64,000 bases of DNA from Balamuthia mandrillaris (taxonomy: Eukaryota; Discosea; Longamoebia; Balamuthiidae): assembly GCA_031835245.1 (NCBI GenBank), contig JAVKOQ010000261.1, forward strand, positions 1-64,000. Direction: 5' to 3'. The notes beneath the pieces were generated by a model. The model searched no databases. It saw nothing but the letters and a program-made list of their open reading frames with translations, and was not told the DNA's origin. This document shows positions 20,009-30,100 of this stretch, piece by piece. A program made the position numbers and the translations under genes. Positions within the stretch are counted from its first letter, which is position 1; each line of letters begins with the position of its first letter.

Positions 20009-21596
20009 ACTACAGAAGAGAAAGGAGGCATTACCATCAACGTAGAAGATGTAGGAATCCTCTCCAAGTTTGATCTTGTGTTCCTTCTTTTTGGGTCTGG
20101 GCGGTCCCAAGTTGGCAAGGCCCATTGATCCCATGATGGAGTCCTGAAAGACGCCTCCTCCACCTCCCTCTTTCTTTCTCTCCTCTCTTTCTTTCTTGAG
20201 CCTCTCCTTCTCTGCTTCTTTTTCCTTCTTGAGCCTCTCCTTCTCCGCCTCCTTTTCCCTTCTCACTCGCTCCTTTTCCATCTCTTCCAGCTGATCGTTA
20301 CGTTCCTTGAGCATGCGGTCCGCCTCTGCCACTGAGTTGCGAACGTACTCCTCCAGCATTTCTTTTTTGTTGCTGAAGTGGTCCACTTCTGTTTCTACCT
20401 TCTCAATCTCCTCCTTCAAAGCTGCTAATGTTCCTAAGAGATTTGGTAGCTTATGTTCCACTTCTCTTAATTCTTCATTTTGTGCCGTTAGTGTGGAAGA
20501 AGGAAAAGGAGGATAACAGGAAACGAACCTTTGACAGTTTTGTAGTCGCTGCTAGAGAGGAACTTGGGGACGGTGTCCGTTTGAAGAAGAAAGCTGATGG
20601 ACTTTTGGGCCTCTTCGAAAAAGTTAATATTGGGAGTGCCGGTGGAGGCCTCCAGGTTGTTCTTCTCCTCTTGCATTTGTTGTTTCACTTTAGTGTTGAC
20701 GTTGATCTCTGAGTCACTCTCCTGCAAGAGATATAAATGAGTAATGAAGATAATAACTACAGAGTATGGAAACAAAGAAAGAGAGAGAACAAAAGAAGAA
20801 ACAAAGAGGAGGAGCAGAAGTGGAAGAAGAAGAAGAAGAACAAGAAGAAGAAGAAGAAGAACAAGAACAAGAAGAACAAGAAGAACAAGAACAAGAACAA
20901 GAACAAGAAGAACAAGAAGAACAAGAAGAACAAGAAGAAGAAGAACAAGAAGAACAAGAACAAGAACAAGAAGTGCTAAGACCTCTTTCAAGTATTTTTC
21001 ATAAATATCAAAAGCTCGTTCGCGAAGAGCAGGTGCCGGTATTCCTATCTATTGTCAGCATTACAGCAAGAACAAAGCGTAAGAAAAAGAACAGAATTAA
21101 AACACAAAACGCACAAAAAAAATACACAAAAAAAACAACAAACCCTATGGTTATGTTTGAAGTCTTCCACGGCAAGGTAAAAGTCAAAATTCTCAGAACA
21201 GAAGCTCTTGGCCAGGAAGACTCTGAACATAGTCTTCAACAGCTCGTCCTTCACAATGTTCTCGGGGGTGATTTCCTCGTCCTTCAACATCTCCACCTCC
21301 CCGCCCGTGGGAATAATCCCGCGCGGCAGCAGCGAGGCCACTCCCGAAGAAGCCAAGGAGGAGGCGGAGGAGCCCCTAGCGGAGGCCGCACGCCCTCTCG
21401 CCCGCCCAACGGCCCCATGGGACTCCCCGCTGCTCGTCAGGTCCACTTCGGAAGAGGAGTCATAGTAGGCGGCAGGGCTTGTGGCGGTTGTCGAATTGGA
21501 GTTGCTGAGCTGACCCCGTTGGAAGGAAGAGTCGGAGGAAGAGGAGGTCGACGAGAAGAGCTGGCTGCCAGAGCCTCTTGGTGAATTGCTGTGCAT
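19242..21596 (-). CDS. RGS-coiled-coil-C2 protein
   Basis: Predicted regulator of G-protein signalling with a membrane-binding C2 domain. Exons (minus): 21144-21596, 20983-21048, 20529-20721, 20035-20472, 19778-19928, 19242-19647; phases agree, 568 aa. Residues 1-100 are Ser-rich. The RGS domain spans exons 1-3: MFRVFLAKSFCSENFDFYLAVEDFK carries the conserved Asn; then RERAFDIYEKYLKE; then SISFLLQTDTVPKFLSSSDY. A charged coiled coil follows (KEEIEKVETEVDHF, and KERLKKE repeats). The C2 domain reads LQAKDLVARDQSGK...DAYITV-type strands...NNPKWYESFIF, with the final strands in exon 6, and the protein ends in a Lys-rich helix. The exon 4 acceptor could be 20472 or ~10 bp further on. A GAP role on a G-alpha subunit is inferred from the RGS fold. 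Confidence 0.87.
20818..20972. repeat. GAA/ACA degenerate trinucleotide tract in an intron
   Basis: About 150 bp of AAGAAG/AACAAG units on the plus strand inside intron 20722-20982 of the RGS-C2 gene, i.e. TTC/TTG on its coding strand. Confidence 0.85.
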
Positions 21597-22424
21597 TGTC
21601 TTGCCTATGAGGTGCTTATCTTTCTAATTTTATTTTTTCTGTTCAAAAACCCCAACAAATAGTTTTTTTTAACCACAAAGAAGAATAATAATAAACAGAA
21701 GAAGAAGAATAAACAACGGCGAAGGTACCTTCTCTGTTTTTACTCCCCCGACGCGGTTCTGCTTGCTTTGTAAAAACGGTCAAACTTAAAAAACAAAAAC
21801 CTTTTTCTTTTCGGTGTTAAATGCCCCCTTCCGCGCCTTCCTCTCTTCTCTTTCTCTTTCTCTTTATTTCTTCTCTGGGCGATGAATAACCGAATAATAA
21901 TAAACAAAAAAAAATTATGGGGTGTGATTGCGTTCTCCTCTCATTTCGGTAACTCGTTGGCTTATGAATTGGACAGGGAGGGGGAAGAAATAAGGTGCCC
22001 CCGCCAACGAGTTGGCACCGCTTTGCCAAAACCCACCGCAACCACCCGCTAACCGTCGGCGGCGCCCCCCGCCATCACGGTGGCGGGCGTAACTCCCAAC
22101 CATTAATGAAAAATTTCCAAACCAGAGCGCCAGGATGACCTCACCTACCGTCAATATTGTCGACTGGAAGCGAAAAGGGAGGAGGAAGGCACCACGCACT
22201 GCCGGCAGGAGAGAGGGAGAGAGACGGGAGAGTGCAGGAAGGCCAAAGCTTGCCTGTTGCTGCCTAACAGGAAAAGCAAAAGAAAAAAAAAGTATTCCTA
22301 CTGCTGCTTTGCTTTTCTTTGCCGTCCCCTGCACTCTTAATCTCGTCTTTTTTTGTTGTTTGTTTGCCGCCCGCATTTTTTTAGAGTATAGCAAAACGAA
22401 AAAAAAAAGTAAAGAGGCGGTGCG
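21597..22424. promoter_or_regulatory. Divergent intergenic region, RGS-C2 / kinase fusion
   Basis: About 830 bp between two divergent starts. It holds an 11-bp inverted repeat (AACTCGTTGGC at 21951-21961 and GCCAACGAGTT at 22003-22013) and a GC-rich hairpin at 22068-22087 (CCCGCCA, 6-nt loop, TGGCGGG). No gene seen. These are candidate regulatory structures only. Confidence 0.45.
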
Positions 22425-25400
22425 ATGCGAAGCAATGAAGAAACCATTTTGATAAGCTCCGGCCTGATCGCCAAACATGATCCGGAGGAGATCTACGAAC
22501 TGACTGACATCCTTGGCAAAGGGTTCGTCGTTTTTCGCTCTTTGATGGTGGCTTCTCACCCAGTGGTCCTGTTTTTTTTTTAAAACTCATCACTCGCTCT
22601 CTTAAACAGCTCTCATGGGACTGTTTACAAAGCTATCAATCGTATGGATGGCACCATTGCGGCCGTTAAGAAGCTGCCGGACATCTTTCAGTCGAAGAAG
22701 GACTTGAAGGACAGCCTGAGAGAGATCACCATTCTCAAAGAGCTGAACTCCCAGTTTTGCATTGAGTACTACAACAGCTACTTCAAGAATGGAGACCTTT
22801 GGGTACCATTTTGTGTTTCTTCTCGTTCTCTTGCCCTATGGTCTTCTCATTTCTGTTTCATTATCGTTTTCGGCTATTTCTTATAACTCATGTTGCTGTT
22901 GTATATGTTGTTTTGCTTCGTTCTTTGTTCTTCTTGTTCTTGTTCTTCTCCTTCTCCTCCTTCTGCTTCTGCTTCTGCTTCTATTCATGTTTATTTTTTC
23001 TCGTTCTTACATGTGTGATTCCCATGGGATAGATCGCAATGGAGTATTTCGATGCGGGGTCGATAGGTGATTTGCTGGTGGTGAAAAAGCAAGCCCTCTC
23101 AGAGAGCCAGATTCGAATGATAGTCTACCAAGTTCTTAAAGGCCTAGAACACCTTCACTCTCGCCGCATGATCCATCGAGGCACGTTCTTCCTCCACTTC
23201 CTTCGCAAGTAGTTACAGCAACATAACGCTCATTATGAACATCTAACTTGGGAGAGCAGACATAAAAGCAGGAAACGTTCTTCTCAACAAAAAGGGACAA
23301 GTGAAGCTCGCCGATTTTGGTATCACTACTTTGGTTAGTCCCAACGAAAAGAAGAGTACCCAGATTGGAAGCCCCTTTTGGATGTCTCCTGAGTTGATTG
23401 TTGGAGATGGTTATGACCAAAAGGTCGCTTTTCCTTTTCTTTCGTGCTTAATGGTTTCTATGAAACGTTGTGTTCTGATCTCTTTGCTTTGTTACCCCAA
23501 ATTGAGCAGACTGACATTTGGTCTCTTGGCATGACAATACTTGAGCTGGCGGAACCATTTCATCCTTTTTTCTCTCAAGAGCCTCTTTCTGTACCTTCTC
23601 TCTCACCTCTCTCTCACTCTCACTCTCACTCTCACTCTCTCTCTCTCTCTCTCTCTGTTTTCCCAACGCGCGACATATTCTAATGCATATGTTTCCACAG
23701 GCGGTCTTTCAAATAGTAAGCGGACCTCCGCCACAACTGACCCGTAAAGAGGAATGGTCGCAACATTTTTTGGAGTTTCTCAATTTGTGTCTTGACAAGG
23801 ACCCACAGCAACGGCCGGGCGCAACGCAGCTCCTCCAACACCAATTTTTGAATATGCGGCCGAGAACCAACTCGACCTACCTTTTTGCCAGCCAAAGCGA
23901 GTCGAAGCAGACACCGCGAGAGAAGCTAGAGGAAATGCACAGTCCAACCACAACCAAGAAAATGGCAACCCCTTCTGGAGGTAGTGGCAACAGCAATAGC
24001 AATTCTTCAATGGACTGTCAGGCGTCTAACTCGCAGTTAGCCTGCGAGTATTTGACAGCCATGCAAGAACGGAATCTGCAAAGCCAGGTATATATTCGAG
24101 AGCGTCCTTTCTCTTCTCGTCCTTTTCCTGTTGTTTGTTGCGCTATCTCACTTTTTGTTTTCTAGCAAAAGCTGGCTGCGGATGCAAAAGAGGTAAGTTC
24201 CAAACACGTGTTTTACTTTGGTTACCATACTGAAGTTTCTTTTTATTGAACGTTAAGGCGGTGGTGAAGATATTCTTGCAAGATAATTCTTATCGCAGTT
24301 TGCTTCTTAAAGAAAACGAGCAAACGACTGAAGTTATTCAGCGGCTACGGAAAAAGGTTGGAGAGGTGCCCATGTTGCACACAGGCAATCTCAAGAAGTC
24401 TATGGTACCAGCATACAGCTCCCGCTTTGCGTTGGCTTTGTTGGTCTCCTCTTCTCCGGCAACCTCTTCCTCTCCTTCTTCATCGACCACGAAGCCCGCT
24501 CCCACTGAAATAGTGATGGGTGAACATGATGTTCCTCTCGAAGCTATGAAGCAAAAACAGGATGAAGGTGAGCTCGTGTGGCTTTTGAAAGAAGTTCCAG
24601 ACCAAAAGGTAATATTATTATTTTTATATGTCCGTTATGAGAAGAGTGAATAACTTCTCTTGCTGCTCTCTCTTTCTCTACCTCAAGGCCTTTGAGGAAT
24701 TAGTTGCCGTTATTGAAAGATATAAAAAGATGGATAGTGATGGGGAAGAAAGCGAACAAACAACAATAGAAAACAGCGTCGCTCGGTTTCTAGCAAAAGA
24801 GGGAGCAAAGGAGCTCATCAATGACTTTATCAACGTACTGCTAAAACCGCATCTGAGCGTCGTATCGGCCCTTTGTTCCAGCACAAGCGGCATTTCCCAA
24901 CACAAAATGGATTGCATCGGTAATGCCCTTATCATCGTGTTCGCAAATCATCGTCGTCTGGTAGATCTTTTCGTAAAGCTCTGCTCTATTGAAGTAGCGC
25001 ATACAGGTACCTCTTTGGTTATTGTTGTTGTTGTTGCTGCTGCTGCTTCTTCTTGTTCTGCTTCCTCTTCTTTGTTCCTCCTTTTCCTGGTGATTCAATT
25101 ATTTTGTTTTGTATAGTGTCAATAACGGACCTGTTTCTGGCGGGTAGTATGATTGGCAAAATGTTACCAGCGTACATGAAAATGGCGCTGCAACCCTATC
25201 TACGAGCGGTCCTGATGCCCGTTACCCAACTTTTATTTAAGCTGGATAAACCTCTCGTTGTACGTTTTTGCTCTCGTTTTTCCTTGTAATCAACAAGCAT
25301 TATAACCTCAAGAAATACACCAGTTGGACCCCAGCATCACTAAATCGAAAGAAGAAACAAAAAAATGCATATCCAAGGTAAAGGAGATATGCAGAGTTCT

Positions 25401-25672
25401 AATAGAACGCCTTTTCGCGTCGATGCCTGCGTTGCCATTGTACGTTTTGTTTTTTTAAAATGGCTAACTTGCAAGACGAGGGTTTTTTTTAAACATTGTT
25501 TCTTCCCATCTCTTTCTTGAAAGGACGTTTCGGCGCATCTGTCAAAGGATGCATGAAATTGTAATTAATTGCTGGCCCACGAAGAGGCACATTGTTGTAC
25601 AGTCTTTTCTCTTTACTAAGTTTTTATGCCCCGCCCTCGTTTCTCCTCAGCACTTTGGCCTAGTTGATGGTT

Positions 25673-25712
<40 letters not shown>

Positions 25713-27111
25713 GTTGACGTTTCTAATGCTAATAACGATTATCTTATGTAGCTAAAGTACCTGATAAGAGTGTATTTCGCTCCAGTGTACTTGTTTCCAA
25801 AACCATGCAAGCTATCGCTACAGGTGTTTACTTTGGAGAGCGAGAACGACACATGGCTGCACTCAACAAATTCGTGAAAGAGTGTTATCCTACTCTAGCA
25901 GAACACTTTCAAACAATAATTGTGCGTTACTCCTTTTTTTAAAAATTTCCTCTCTATGTACAAGTTATGTGTGGCTGATATTCATTCAAAAAACAAAAAA
26001 GGAATGTAAGCAACATTTACCGCCAACGCTAGCAAGCCGGACTCGCATGCAAAGCAAAACAATAGGAAGCGCTCCTCTCAAAGATGCATCCAACTCTGCA
26101 GTGAACAAGACAGAAAAACATATACGCAGCTCATGGCTTTCCAGTTCTCCTCAACTGCAAATCAGCACCAGCTGCGACTCTCTTGATGCTCAGGTGAGGG
26201 ATCGACCGTCCCTTTCCATGAACTCTCAGAAGCGGCCTTCCCTGGAGGGGCCTCCTCGCAGCATCAGCGTTGAATGCTTTCGCACAGCTCCCAAGTATGT
26301 CGAACCGGATGCGCAGAAGCGAAAGGAACGGGAAGAGCGCCGGAGAAGAGTAGAAGAGATAGAAAGAAAAATGAAAGGACTCCCCAATAACACGACCGAC
26401 ACGAAAACTCAAAGCCCTCCTGGAAGCCCTTCGCGTCTTTCGAAAAGCAGTGATGACCATCGGTACCGCCCCCAATCGACAGCAGCAGCAGCAACAGCAA
26501 CGCATTCAGTTGGTTAGCACAGCGGCATCGGCCTCATCCGCTTTGTTGGAGGGCAGACCGCTGAAAATCGGCGGTGGCAGAACTGAATACTCACAAAAGG
26601 AGGAGCGAAAGCGCCGCGTTGCTCAAATAGAGAAGAAGCTTTTGGAGAAAGTCGACGGAGGAGGAAAAGCTGCTACGGTCTCACAAACGGAAGCAACAAC
26701 TACTGTTGATGATAGTAAGGTCACTCCAGCAGCAGCGCAAGCAGAAGGAGAAAAGGAGACCGAACACACAAGAGATGAAACGCCAAAAGAAGAAGAAAAG
26801 GAGACTGAACACACAAAACAAGAACACACAAAAGCAGAAGAAGAAAAGACAAAAGAAGACGAAAGGGAAGAGAAAGAGGGAGAGGCGCGGCAAGAATGGC
26901 GAGCAGTAAGGAGGAACAGCCAAGCTGATGGCGACGAAGGGAGAGCGGTGAGCAGCAGGCGGAGGAGTCTGAAGAGGAAATGGGGCTCTGGTTTGCTGAA
27001 GAAGAGCACAGCAAAGCGGCGCTGCTGCTGCTACAATTGCTAAAGGATCCTGTTCTCTTTAATAAGGTCGCCAAGGCGATGAATGTGGAAGTTAGACTCC
27101 AACCCAGCTAA
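22425..27111 (+). CDS. Ste20/MST-like kinase fused to RA-like and RasGAP-like domains
   Basis: Sixteen exons: 22425-22522, 22610-22802, 23033-23180, 23260-23423, 23510-23590, 23701-24087, 24166-24192, 24258-24608, 24688-25006, 25117-25259, 25324-25439, 25524-25669, 25752-25921, 26002-26462, 26518-26905, 26959-27111; phases agree, 1114 aa. Residues ~20-270 are a complete kinase: LGKGSHGTVYKA, AAVKKL lysine, MIHRDIKAGN, DFG, GSPFWMSPE, DIWSLGMTILELAE. A spacer leads to an RA/ubiquitin-like fold (VVKIFLQDNSYRSLLLKENE). A RasGAP fold follows: LFLAGSMIGKMLPAYMK, FLFTKFLCPALVSP, LVSKTMQAIATG. The position of the arginine finger (LFR in p120GAP) is Leu and the FLR arginine is Lys, so GAP activity is unlikely. 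The tail has two basic repeats (KEERKRRVAQIEKK and a relative) and acidic low complexity. Likely a Ras-binding kinase; inference. Confidence 0.85.
23181..23259 (+). other. Non-canonical GC-AG intron in the kinase HRD motif
   Basis: The exon ends CATCGAG and the intron begins GCACGT; the acceptor is GAGAGCAG. Only this junction restores IHRDIKAGN. No GT donor nearby keeps the frame. Confidence 0.75.
26463..26517 (+). other. 55-bp mini-intron in the kinase-fusion tail
   Basis: Donor GTACCG and acceptor GGTTAG, phase 2. Its removal joins two overlapping open frames that both carry the KEER-RRV-IE-K repeat. Confidence 0.55.
26906..26958 (+). other. 53-bp mini-intron near the kinase-fusion C-terminus
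   Basis: Donor GTAAGG and acceptor AGCAGCAG, phase 0. Splicing switches from a Lys/Cys-rich read-through frame to a helix-like end (MGLWFAEEEHSKAALLLLQL) that stops at 27111. Confidence 0.6.
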
Positions 27112-30100
27112 GCTCATTGTTTCCTTCCCTCCTTTTTTTTTGTTTCCACAACAACAACGACTATTTGTATTGCTTACTAATTTTCGCTTCACATGCGTGA
27201 GCTTTACTATGAATTTGCCGTAGGGGCCTGTGTTCACTTTTAATGTTTTGTCGTCCACCCAATCCATCTCCACTACATCCAACATCGAAGAAAGCAATGG
27301 TAATGCTGCTCACGATACGTGGAACAGGTGAGCTAGAGAAGCGCGAAGAGAAGAGAGAAGAGAGAAGGCGTACGAGAGATTTTTGGAACGGGCGAAATTT
27401 GGATACAGTGAGGGTTGGAACCAAAGACATACAGGAATGAGGACTTGGTTCCCCAGATAACAACGTTGGAGTCTTCCATGGCGTAAGAAGCCAGCGTATC
27501 TCCTTTGCGATTGAAGAGAAGGGCGGTGATGGCAGACTTGTGTCCTCCTTCCAGAACGTGCCACTTGGTTGCTGTTTTCAAGTCGTAGATGACTATGACG
27601 GCACGTTCGCTTCCAACGGCCAGGCGTTGGGTCTTCTGATGGAAACTAACCATCGGGAAGAGCTTAACCAAAGAATGCAGAACGGTAGTTGCTCCTTTAA
27701 GGCAGCTTTCGCGGAGGTGAGGCACATTTGGATCCAAAGAACGGACCACGGTGTCTACCAAACGGGGAAGCTCCGGTAGCAGCGCAACAGGATCCTTCTT
27801 CACAAAGCTTCCAAGCAAGGCTAGCGCGTCGGAGCGCTCTCTTGTACCAATGTCCGTTCGAGCGATAATTTCTCCAATAGCATCGATGGTGGCCCTTGGC
27901 TCTTGTATACCTATCAGCATAAGGCTGTGGTGTGCAATACCAGCTATATTCGGTGGCTCGGTTACCAGCGTGAGTGCAAACAGGGCGCGCACAAGGGATC
28001 TCAAGCTCTTCACATGAGGTTTCCATATAGCAAAGCCTTTTCCTAGCAACTCTGCAGCAGTAACTCGCATGCTGTTGTTGCTCTTTTGCTTCAACAGCCG
28101 TAAAAGAGTTTTAGTAGCCTCCCGTGCCAACCTATTACCACAAAGTGTTACATTCTTCTACTAGGCATAGATTTGGAGGAGAGAGATACATTTCATCAAT
28201 GCAATCCGGACGCTCTGAGGCAAGAATGGCTAACACTAGCACCACCGACGCTCGTTTACTTTGCACGGTACTAATTCCAGAATCTGAAAGTCGCACTATT
28301 GTGGAGTTGTAAGCTGTTAATCCTTTGGCCAAACTTCTAATTTTTTAGTAGGAAAAGATACATACGTTGGCTAGACCACGACAACGCGAACGACTTGAGG
28401 GATTCAGGTGACATTCTGCTGGTTGTCGTCGAGAAGATGGATCTTGCTGATTGCATCACATCATCTGGTTGATATGTTTAAGTGTTTTGTATTTTAAGTT
28501 GCCTGAAGAAAAGAGGGAGAAGCAAACCAAACGGATCTTGCCAATAACGTGCCAAGAAAGGAAGAGATGGGCCTATATAATTTGGAGTCATATCAGGGGC
28601 TAACGCACAAAAGTAAGAGAGCAACTGGCTAGTTGCATTCTTATTGTCACCCAGTTGAAGCATAGTTTTGATAACTGTAACGGCAGAAAGGGTATGTAAA
28701 GCTGTTAGGTGACTCGAAATTTGCCACCGGCCAGCACCAGTCGCCTTTCCGGGCACTAACATGCTGTACATATTTCCTGCAGGAGTAGTGCTTTTCCACG
28801 AACAGAGAGAGAGAGAGATGAGGCGTAGTTCCATTGAGAGAGAGGGAGAGAAGGTAGTTCTTACGTTTGAATGCCAACGGTAATGGCTGGGTCAGGAGGC
28901 ATAAGACGAAGCTCCTCTCTGCATATCCGATCTAGCGAAGTGGAGGCATTCCAGGGAATGAGATAAGTGAAGAGGGATACAGATTGGGTTCTTAAACACG
29001 GATTCGTTTTCTTCCACGAGCATGGAGAACCGCTATCCTCACCACTGGAACCTCGTTCTATTGAGGAGGTGCTCTTACGATGCCCAGCTTTTTTAGTCGA
29101 GGAGGTGGTAGGCACCGATGGAGTAGAAGAAGTAGCAGATGGTTGACGCAGGTGCGTATAAAGATCATGTACGATATTCTTTATATCAAGAAGTAGAATT
29201 TGAAGAGGCGAGTGATGCTCCTGTTGGCTACGCTCTCCAACGCAAAGGCTCAACGCTTTGGCGGTCCTTTGTGAAGTGTCAATTGACGTGTTCCTTTTTG
29301 TGCACAAAGGAAAACCAAAGTCAGATACCCTTCAAACGTTTGTATAAATAAGTACGTACTCCGTGGTAAGCATGGTTGTGCTATGAAGTATTTCCATTGC
29401 GGAGCGACCGTGCACACAACTTTCAAGAATACCAGAACTCAACTATACAGCGTACAGATATGTCATTACTACTGAGAGGAGAGAGAGAGAGAGAGAAAAA
29501 AGGTACCTCCCACACCGATACAGAACCATCTTCGCAATGCACGATGAGGTAGTCTTGTAGGATTTTCAACCCAATACCTGCTATTTGAGTGGCATGGCCT
29601 CCAAATATCCGCATGCTTGTTAACAACAGAAGAGAGTCAGTCAGACTTTGACTTGGCACAACAGGATAGCAAGATACCAATTCATATTTTCCAACGAAAA
29701 GAGACCAACAGACTTATCCATGGAAACAGATAAGAACACACCAGCGGTTATAGTGCCAACGCCAGCCTTGGTGGCCACCACCATAGAATGAGTTTCTTGG
29801 GCACCAGAATCGTCTCGATCCGCCGTTTGGTCTGTTTTTACGGTGGTAGTTTTGTAGGAGAGAAAAGGAGCAGGCTTTTCTTTAAAAGGCCCGTATGGTT
29901 GGTATAGTTGTGTTACTGCGTTTGTATGTTGTGAGAACACGTGAAGCAACTCCAATGTGCGAAGATTCCAAACTTTGATCAAACAATCAGCAGAAGAAGA
30001 AACCAAAAAGTCGCGAGTTCCGGTGTGGTAGGTTAGCAGACTCGTTATCCTGGAAGAATGGGCGTGCTTTATCCGTCGAGAGGTGGCCTGTTTACGAGTT

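Follow-up and report, generated by a model that had tools for sequence, protein, structure and literature searches.

In animals, Ras is linked to the MST1/2 kinases in trans by RASSF5, which carries a Ras-association (RA) domain and a SARAH helix, the link being made through SARAH helices, as described in passages of PMC11316025. The RasGAPs, in turn, lose their activity when the arginine finger is replaced, according to a section of PMC9408373. Ras, Hippo-type kinases and RasGAPs have been studied as separate parts; here we describe a gene of Balamuthia mandrillaris in which a Ste20/MST-type kinase is joined in one chain to an RA-type domain and to a RasGAP fold lacking the catalytic arginines. 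The gene lies in the window analysed, i.e., 64,000 nucleotides of contig JAVKOQ010000261.1, which is contig C260 of the 775-contig, 64.8-Mb genome.

A kinase, an RA-type domain and a RasGAP fold in one exon chain

In the haplotype of the window, the gene occupies positions 22425..26517 of the forward strand, on which all of its parts are read, and consists of 14 exons encoding 952 amino acids. Exons 1-7 are located at 22425-22522, 22610-22802, 23033-23180, 23260-23423, 23510-23590, 23701-24087 and 24166-24192, and exons 8-14 at 24258-24608, 24688-25006, 25117-25259, 25324-25439, 25524-25669, 25752-25921 and 26002-26517. Their translation is exactly that of P0001, the NCBI protein named "TAO kinase 1a [Balamuthia mandrillaris]". 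Exon phases agree at all 13 junctions, and 12 of the 13 introns are of the GT-AG type. The remaining one, a 79-base GC-AG intron (23180|23260), interrupts the catalytic Asp codon of the HRD motif (23180..23261), and its GC donor was found in both alleles. When exons 6-13 were base-shuffled, none of 2000 trials gave an open frame. The kinase, the RA-like fold and the RasGAP thus form one open, in-phase exon chain in Balamuthia, which supports the single fused protein proposed in the first-pass annotation.

The kinase domain (residues 24-278, exons 1-6, 22494..23850) scored 224.8 bits against Pfam Pkinase (cut-off 31.7). Its catalytic residues are all retained: Lys53, Glu71, the HRD motif (145-147), the DFG Asp165, the activation-loop Thr180 and P190-E191. 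The domain is therefore complete and that of an intact Ste20/MST-type protein kinase, again as first proposed. Among structures in the PDB, its best match was MST1/2, with 272 bits versus 214 bits for TAO, and the annotation as TAO kinase 1a is called into question. The SARAH domain, the hallmark of MST1/2, gave no match in Pfam scans of P0001, of the longer-tailed allele P0002 or of seven relatives.

Exon 8 (24258..24608) encodes strands and helices arranged in a ubiquitin-like fold (residues 366-478). Against Pfam RA, P0001 reached 13.3 bits and the second allele, on contig C694, 15.4 bits, both below the cut-off of 21, such that a Pfam scan of the Balamuthia protein by itself would miss the domain. 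The cut-off was passed by six of the eight fusion proteins described below, Balamuthia and P0011 being the two that fell under it. When the profile of the family was compared, GTPase-binding RA domains ranked first. The sequence is nearer to the RA domains of RGL1, RIAM and afadin than to that of RASSF5, which gave no better than E = 1.2 against the family profile. The basic residues Lys370, Arg379 and Lys399 are kept and, as read from an alignment, occupy the positions of R20, K32 and K52 of RalGDS, which are Ras-contact positions according to part of PMC3607560. Profile and fold together support the assignment of the exon-8 region as an RA-type domain, which had also been suggested at the outset.

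The RasGAP fold (residues 519-782, 24793..26004) is encoded by exons 9-13 and reaches one codon into exon 14. It passed the Pfam RasGAP cut-off (69.5 versus 28.3 bits) and matched p120GAP/RASA1 and neurofibromin in phmmer searches at 9e-21 and 4e-18, respectively. Alignment to PDB chains of p120GAP and NF1 revealed the loss of both arginines, as the first-pass annotation had read them. The arginine-finger position (R789 of p120GAP) is occupied by Leu597, encoded by CTG at 25137..25139. The FLR motif position (25615..25620; L902-R903 of p120GAP) reads Thr707-Lys708, the FLR Leu being replaced by Thr and the Arg by Lys (codon AAG, 25618-25620). The four assembled copies of the locus show no difference in the finger exon, and the FLR residues are likewise unchanged. 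The fold thus has neither the finger nor the FLR arginine of a catalytic RasGAP, and we infer that it is catalytically dead; a check for an arginine at the finger position returned Leu597 and left the reading of a fused, dead GAP standing. A full-length structure model had a mean pLDDT of 62.8 and a pTM of 0.42, and a Foldseek search with it gave only kinases among the best 50 matches listed, so that the assignment of the GAP fold rests on sequence.

Across the whole genome, RasGAP exon matches numbered 109, some of them in equal-score pairs, and RasGAP genes look numerous in Balamuthia even after halving for haplotypes. Eight of these matches were checked by regular expression, chance matches being set aside by eye; the finger could be located in five and the FLR motif also in five, with Arg in every case. 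Two of the eight loci, L005 and L007, appear to be near-duplicates.

The locus is present in four assembled copies (C260, C36, C222 and C694). Those on C36 and C222 do not differ from the window over compared stretches of 6.5 and 7.8 kb; the copy on C694 is an allele with 97.3% identity. The three identical copies are probably duplicated haplotypes retained in the assembly. Between the alleles, 934 codons contained 15 synonymous base differences and 11 nonsynonymous codons; since pS is 0.024 versus a pN of 0.005, the gene appears to be under constraint. P0002, as modelled by NCBI from the C694 allele, begins inside the kinase domain and lacks most of it, despite which C694 itself holds exons 1-5 without mismatch.

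The frame of the window haplotype stops at 26517. The tail beyond it (26518..27111) carries the C-terminal motif ..NKVAKAMNVEV, which is past the stop in the window and in frame in the C694 allele (P0002), where the tail is open throughout. The low-complexity tail (26463-27111) is of unequal length in the two alleles, either as a real allelic difference or as a consensus error, and for this reason the window haplotype stops early while C694 reads to the motif. An MNVLP-like C-terminal motif was detected by a loose regular expression, with no statistic attached, in P0002, P0004, P0005, P0007, P0011 and P0012, and by eye in P0014; the same expression found none in P0001. The first-pass annotation had drawn sixteen exons ending at 27111. 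Only 14 of these were reproduced, while the end point is sensible, because the C694 allele has an open frame across the tail, whose end resembles the C-terminal motif of the relatives. One pair of mini-introns (20 and 17 bases) was tried as joins into the tail and encountered stops after the first join.

Two flanking exons lie on the opposite strand. Upstream (21072-21623, reverse strand), an exon encodes the beginning of an RGS domain (PF00615, 1.2e-6), and downstream (27333-28157, reverse strand), an exon shows WD40-propeller matches under curated cut-offs.

Relatives with and without the arginine finger

The same order of kinase, RA and RasGAP was observed in six other sequences, which derive from transcriptome and contig collections (the source tag "lgn" being read as SRA-derived Logan contigs) and represent four lineages: P0004/P0005, P0007, P0011 and P0012/P0014. 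They came from a kinase-region search with 292 matches at 1e-30, in which a RasGAP was annotated in at least eight proteins among the best 120 of the 292, i.e., the two Balamuthia alleles and the six relatives. An additional protein, P0009, contains the kinase and RA domains, its GAP being cut off and its finger state not readable. Contigs of 2.5-4.8 kb among the relatives carry the order in one frame. P0011 and P0012 bear transcript names, and the fusion is therefore probably a single mRNA in both. When the RA-GAP part served as a protein query, three proteins were returned, all from Balamuthia, with scoring limited to the 7996 candidates that had most words in common. A profile search with the C-lobe, RA and GAP gave 32 matches (7994 candidates scored), among them P0122, a RasGAP without a kinase that was used as an outgroup. 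The profile search did not return the known members P0004, P0005, P0011, P0012 and P0014; the protein searches were therefore not exhaustive, and absence from a lineage cannot be inferred from them.

The finger position is occupied by Arg in P0011, P0012 and P0014, by Leu in Balamuthia, by Val in P0004 and P0005 and by His in P0007. At the position of the FLR arginine, the fingerless proteins have Lys in all four cases, P0011 has Thr, and P0012 and P0014 have Arg. At the position of p120GAP Lys949, the four fingerless proteins share Arg and the three finger-bearing ones share Lys; only one other GAP column shows a fixed difference between the two groups of these seven sequences.

A tree was built from the kinase alone, with 22 sequences that included 14 outgroups chosen by hand. 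In it, the fusion proteins, eight in number, formed one clade (100/100), within which the fingerless proteins and P0009 formed another (99/96). This tree does not settle how the fusion kinases relate to MST. With the trait columns removed, the GAP tree held the fusion proteins together (94/96) and, less firmly, the fingerless ones (81/87), with long branches, and the whole-protein tree separated fingerless from finger-bearing members at 100/99. The simplest reading of the trees, with the outgroup RasGAPs, is a single fusion in finger-bearing form, followed by one loss of the finger toward Balamuthia.

The first-pass annotation had considered the architecture unfamiliar. Among the matches listed from the titles and abstract openings of open-licence literature, we found no description of the kinase-RA-RasGAP combination or of a finger-to-fingerless series, and neither the Dictyostelium kinome paper nor the Acanthamoeba genome paper uses the term RasGAP in its main text. 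The architecture is not confined to the Balamuthia gene, given the six relatives in four lineages, three of which sequences keep the finger. The separate parts are known already; what would be new is their combination, together with the series from finger to fingerless within one family.

A proposed Ras/Rap effector kinase and its alternatives

We consider it fairly probable (roughly 0.6) that the protein functions as a single-chain Ras/Rap effector kinase, in which the RA domain would read the GTPase and the dead GAP fold would provide a regulatory or docking surface. GTP-loaded Ras or Rap would bind the RA domain and gather the protein at the membrane. The kinase would then activate itself through the activation-loop Thr180, as in MST1/2, which activate themselves through the activation loop. 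The GAP fold, presumably no longer able to accelerate GTP hydrolysis, would serve as a regulatory or second GTPase-docking surface, and the bound switch would thereby stay on during kinase signalling.

The first-pass annotation had the GAP fold itself bind Ras in the manner of IQGAPs, a weak analogy, as the GAP-related domains (GRDs) of IQGAPs do not bind Ras according to PMC12871552. They bind CDC42 at very low affinity, whatever the nucleotide (PMC9408373, in part). In IqgC, mutation of the finger or of the FLR motif stopped RasG binding, as stated in PMC12871552, likewise in part. Taken together, the absence of Ras binding by IQGAP GRDs and its loss in the IqgC mutants make the RA domain the likely Ras/Rap contact. 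Overall, the interpretation given in the first-pass annotation is partly supported.

The same IqgC mutants favour the most serious competitor, namely that the pseudo-GAP is an internal brace or an autoinhibitory lid on the kinase that binds no GTPase, with the RA domain alone as reader. The alteration of both the FLR Leu and the FLR Arg in Balamuthia points the same way, and this possibility deserves real weight, if not the larger share. Against it, all four fingerless proteins have Lys at the FLR Arg position and Arg at the K949 position, and position 755 belongs to the only two GAP columns with a fixed difference between the groups. These observations hint, weakly with seven sequences, that a charged surface has been retained. 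Fixed Lys and Arg in the interface, beside a varied finger position, lean weakly toward such a surface.

The RA-like region might instead be a plain ubiquitin-like or FERM-F1-like spacer with no GTPase binding. This view is unlikely in light of the first rank of GTPase-binding RA domains in the family profile comparison and the three basic positions kept.

It is still less likely that the fold remains a GAP through another residue or acts on a non-Ras GTPase. The constraint on the gene would suit such an activity, as would the basic residues kept at p120 positions 928, 935 and 949, and GAPs of other small GTPases do use other catalytic residues (PMC9408373, in the section cited). However, the varied finger residue (L, V, V, H) is unlike a substituted catalyst, and the FLR arginine is lost too.

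Finally, a wrong merger of two adjacent genes by gene prediction can practically be set aside: the Balamuthia fusion is known here from genome sequence, and a mistake in gene prediction might recur in the NCBI model, but six other sequences, including the transcript-named P0011 and P0012, have the same order in one frame, and phases agree at every one of the junctions.

Returning to the effector-kinase reading, the family may record the conversion of a Ras off-switch into part of a Ras-reading kinase. A tentative and rather doubtful extension is that the ancestor was a self-terminating Ras effector, whose RA domain read Ras-GTP, whose kinase signalled and whose own GAP ended the signal. A single loss of the finger in one branch might then have produced a clamp or second sensor, with the kinase firing only on paired or clustered Ras and keeping Ras on. 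If this were true, the living members of both states would allow the change from GAP to effector to be studied in one gene family. With relatives that have or lack the catalytic arginine, one can test how a Ras off-switch is turned into a component of a Ras reader, and also whether the animal Ras-RASSF-MST link has a counterpart made by fusion.

Comparison with known systems

The TAO kinases, whose name the annotation bears, share with the Balamuthia protein a kinase of the Ste20 group, but the latter is closer to MST1/2.

The IQGAPs resemble the protein in having a RasGAP fold without the finger arginine (PMC12871552, in part). In contrast, they carry Thr and YYR where the fingerless fusion proteins have Leu, Val or His and F-x-K. 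CH, IQ and RGCt domains gave no match in Pfam scans of the Balamuthia protein and its relatives, RGCt being the domain by which an IQGAP would be recognized. For DGAP1 and GAPA of Dictyostelium, the relevant part of PMC12871552 states only that they lack the activity that IqgC has.

The p120GAP/RASA1 and neurofibromin proteins belong to the same fold family. P0011, P0012 and P0014 keep their finger, and P0012 and P0014 also the FLR Arg, while the Balamuthia protein is devoid of both arginines. p120GAP and NF1 are not known to carry a kinase or RA domain.

The closest solved kinase domains are those of MST1/2 (STK4/STK3), and in the pairing of these kinases with RASSF5, an RA domain is likewise tied to an MST-type kinase. 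In that pair, two proteins are joined by SARAH, whereas Balamuthia has one chain with no SARAH match and a RasGAP fold in addition. The likeness to RASSF5-MST would therefore be one of wiring, with the link made in cis in the Balamuthia protein.
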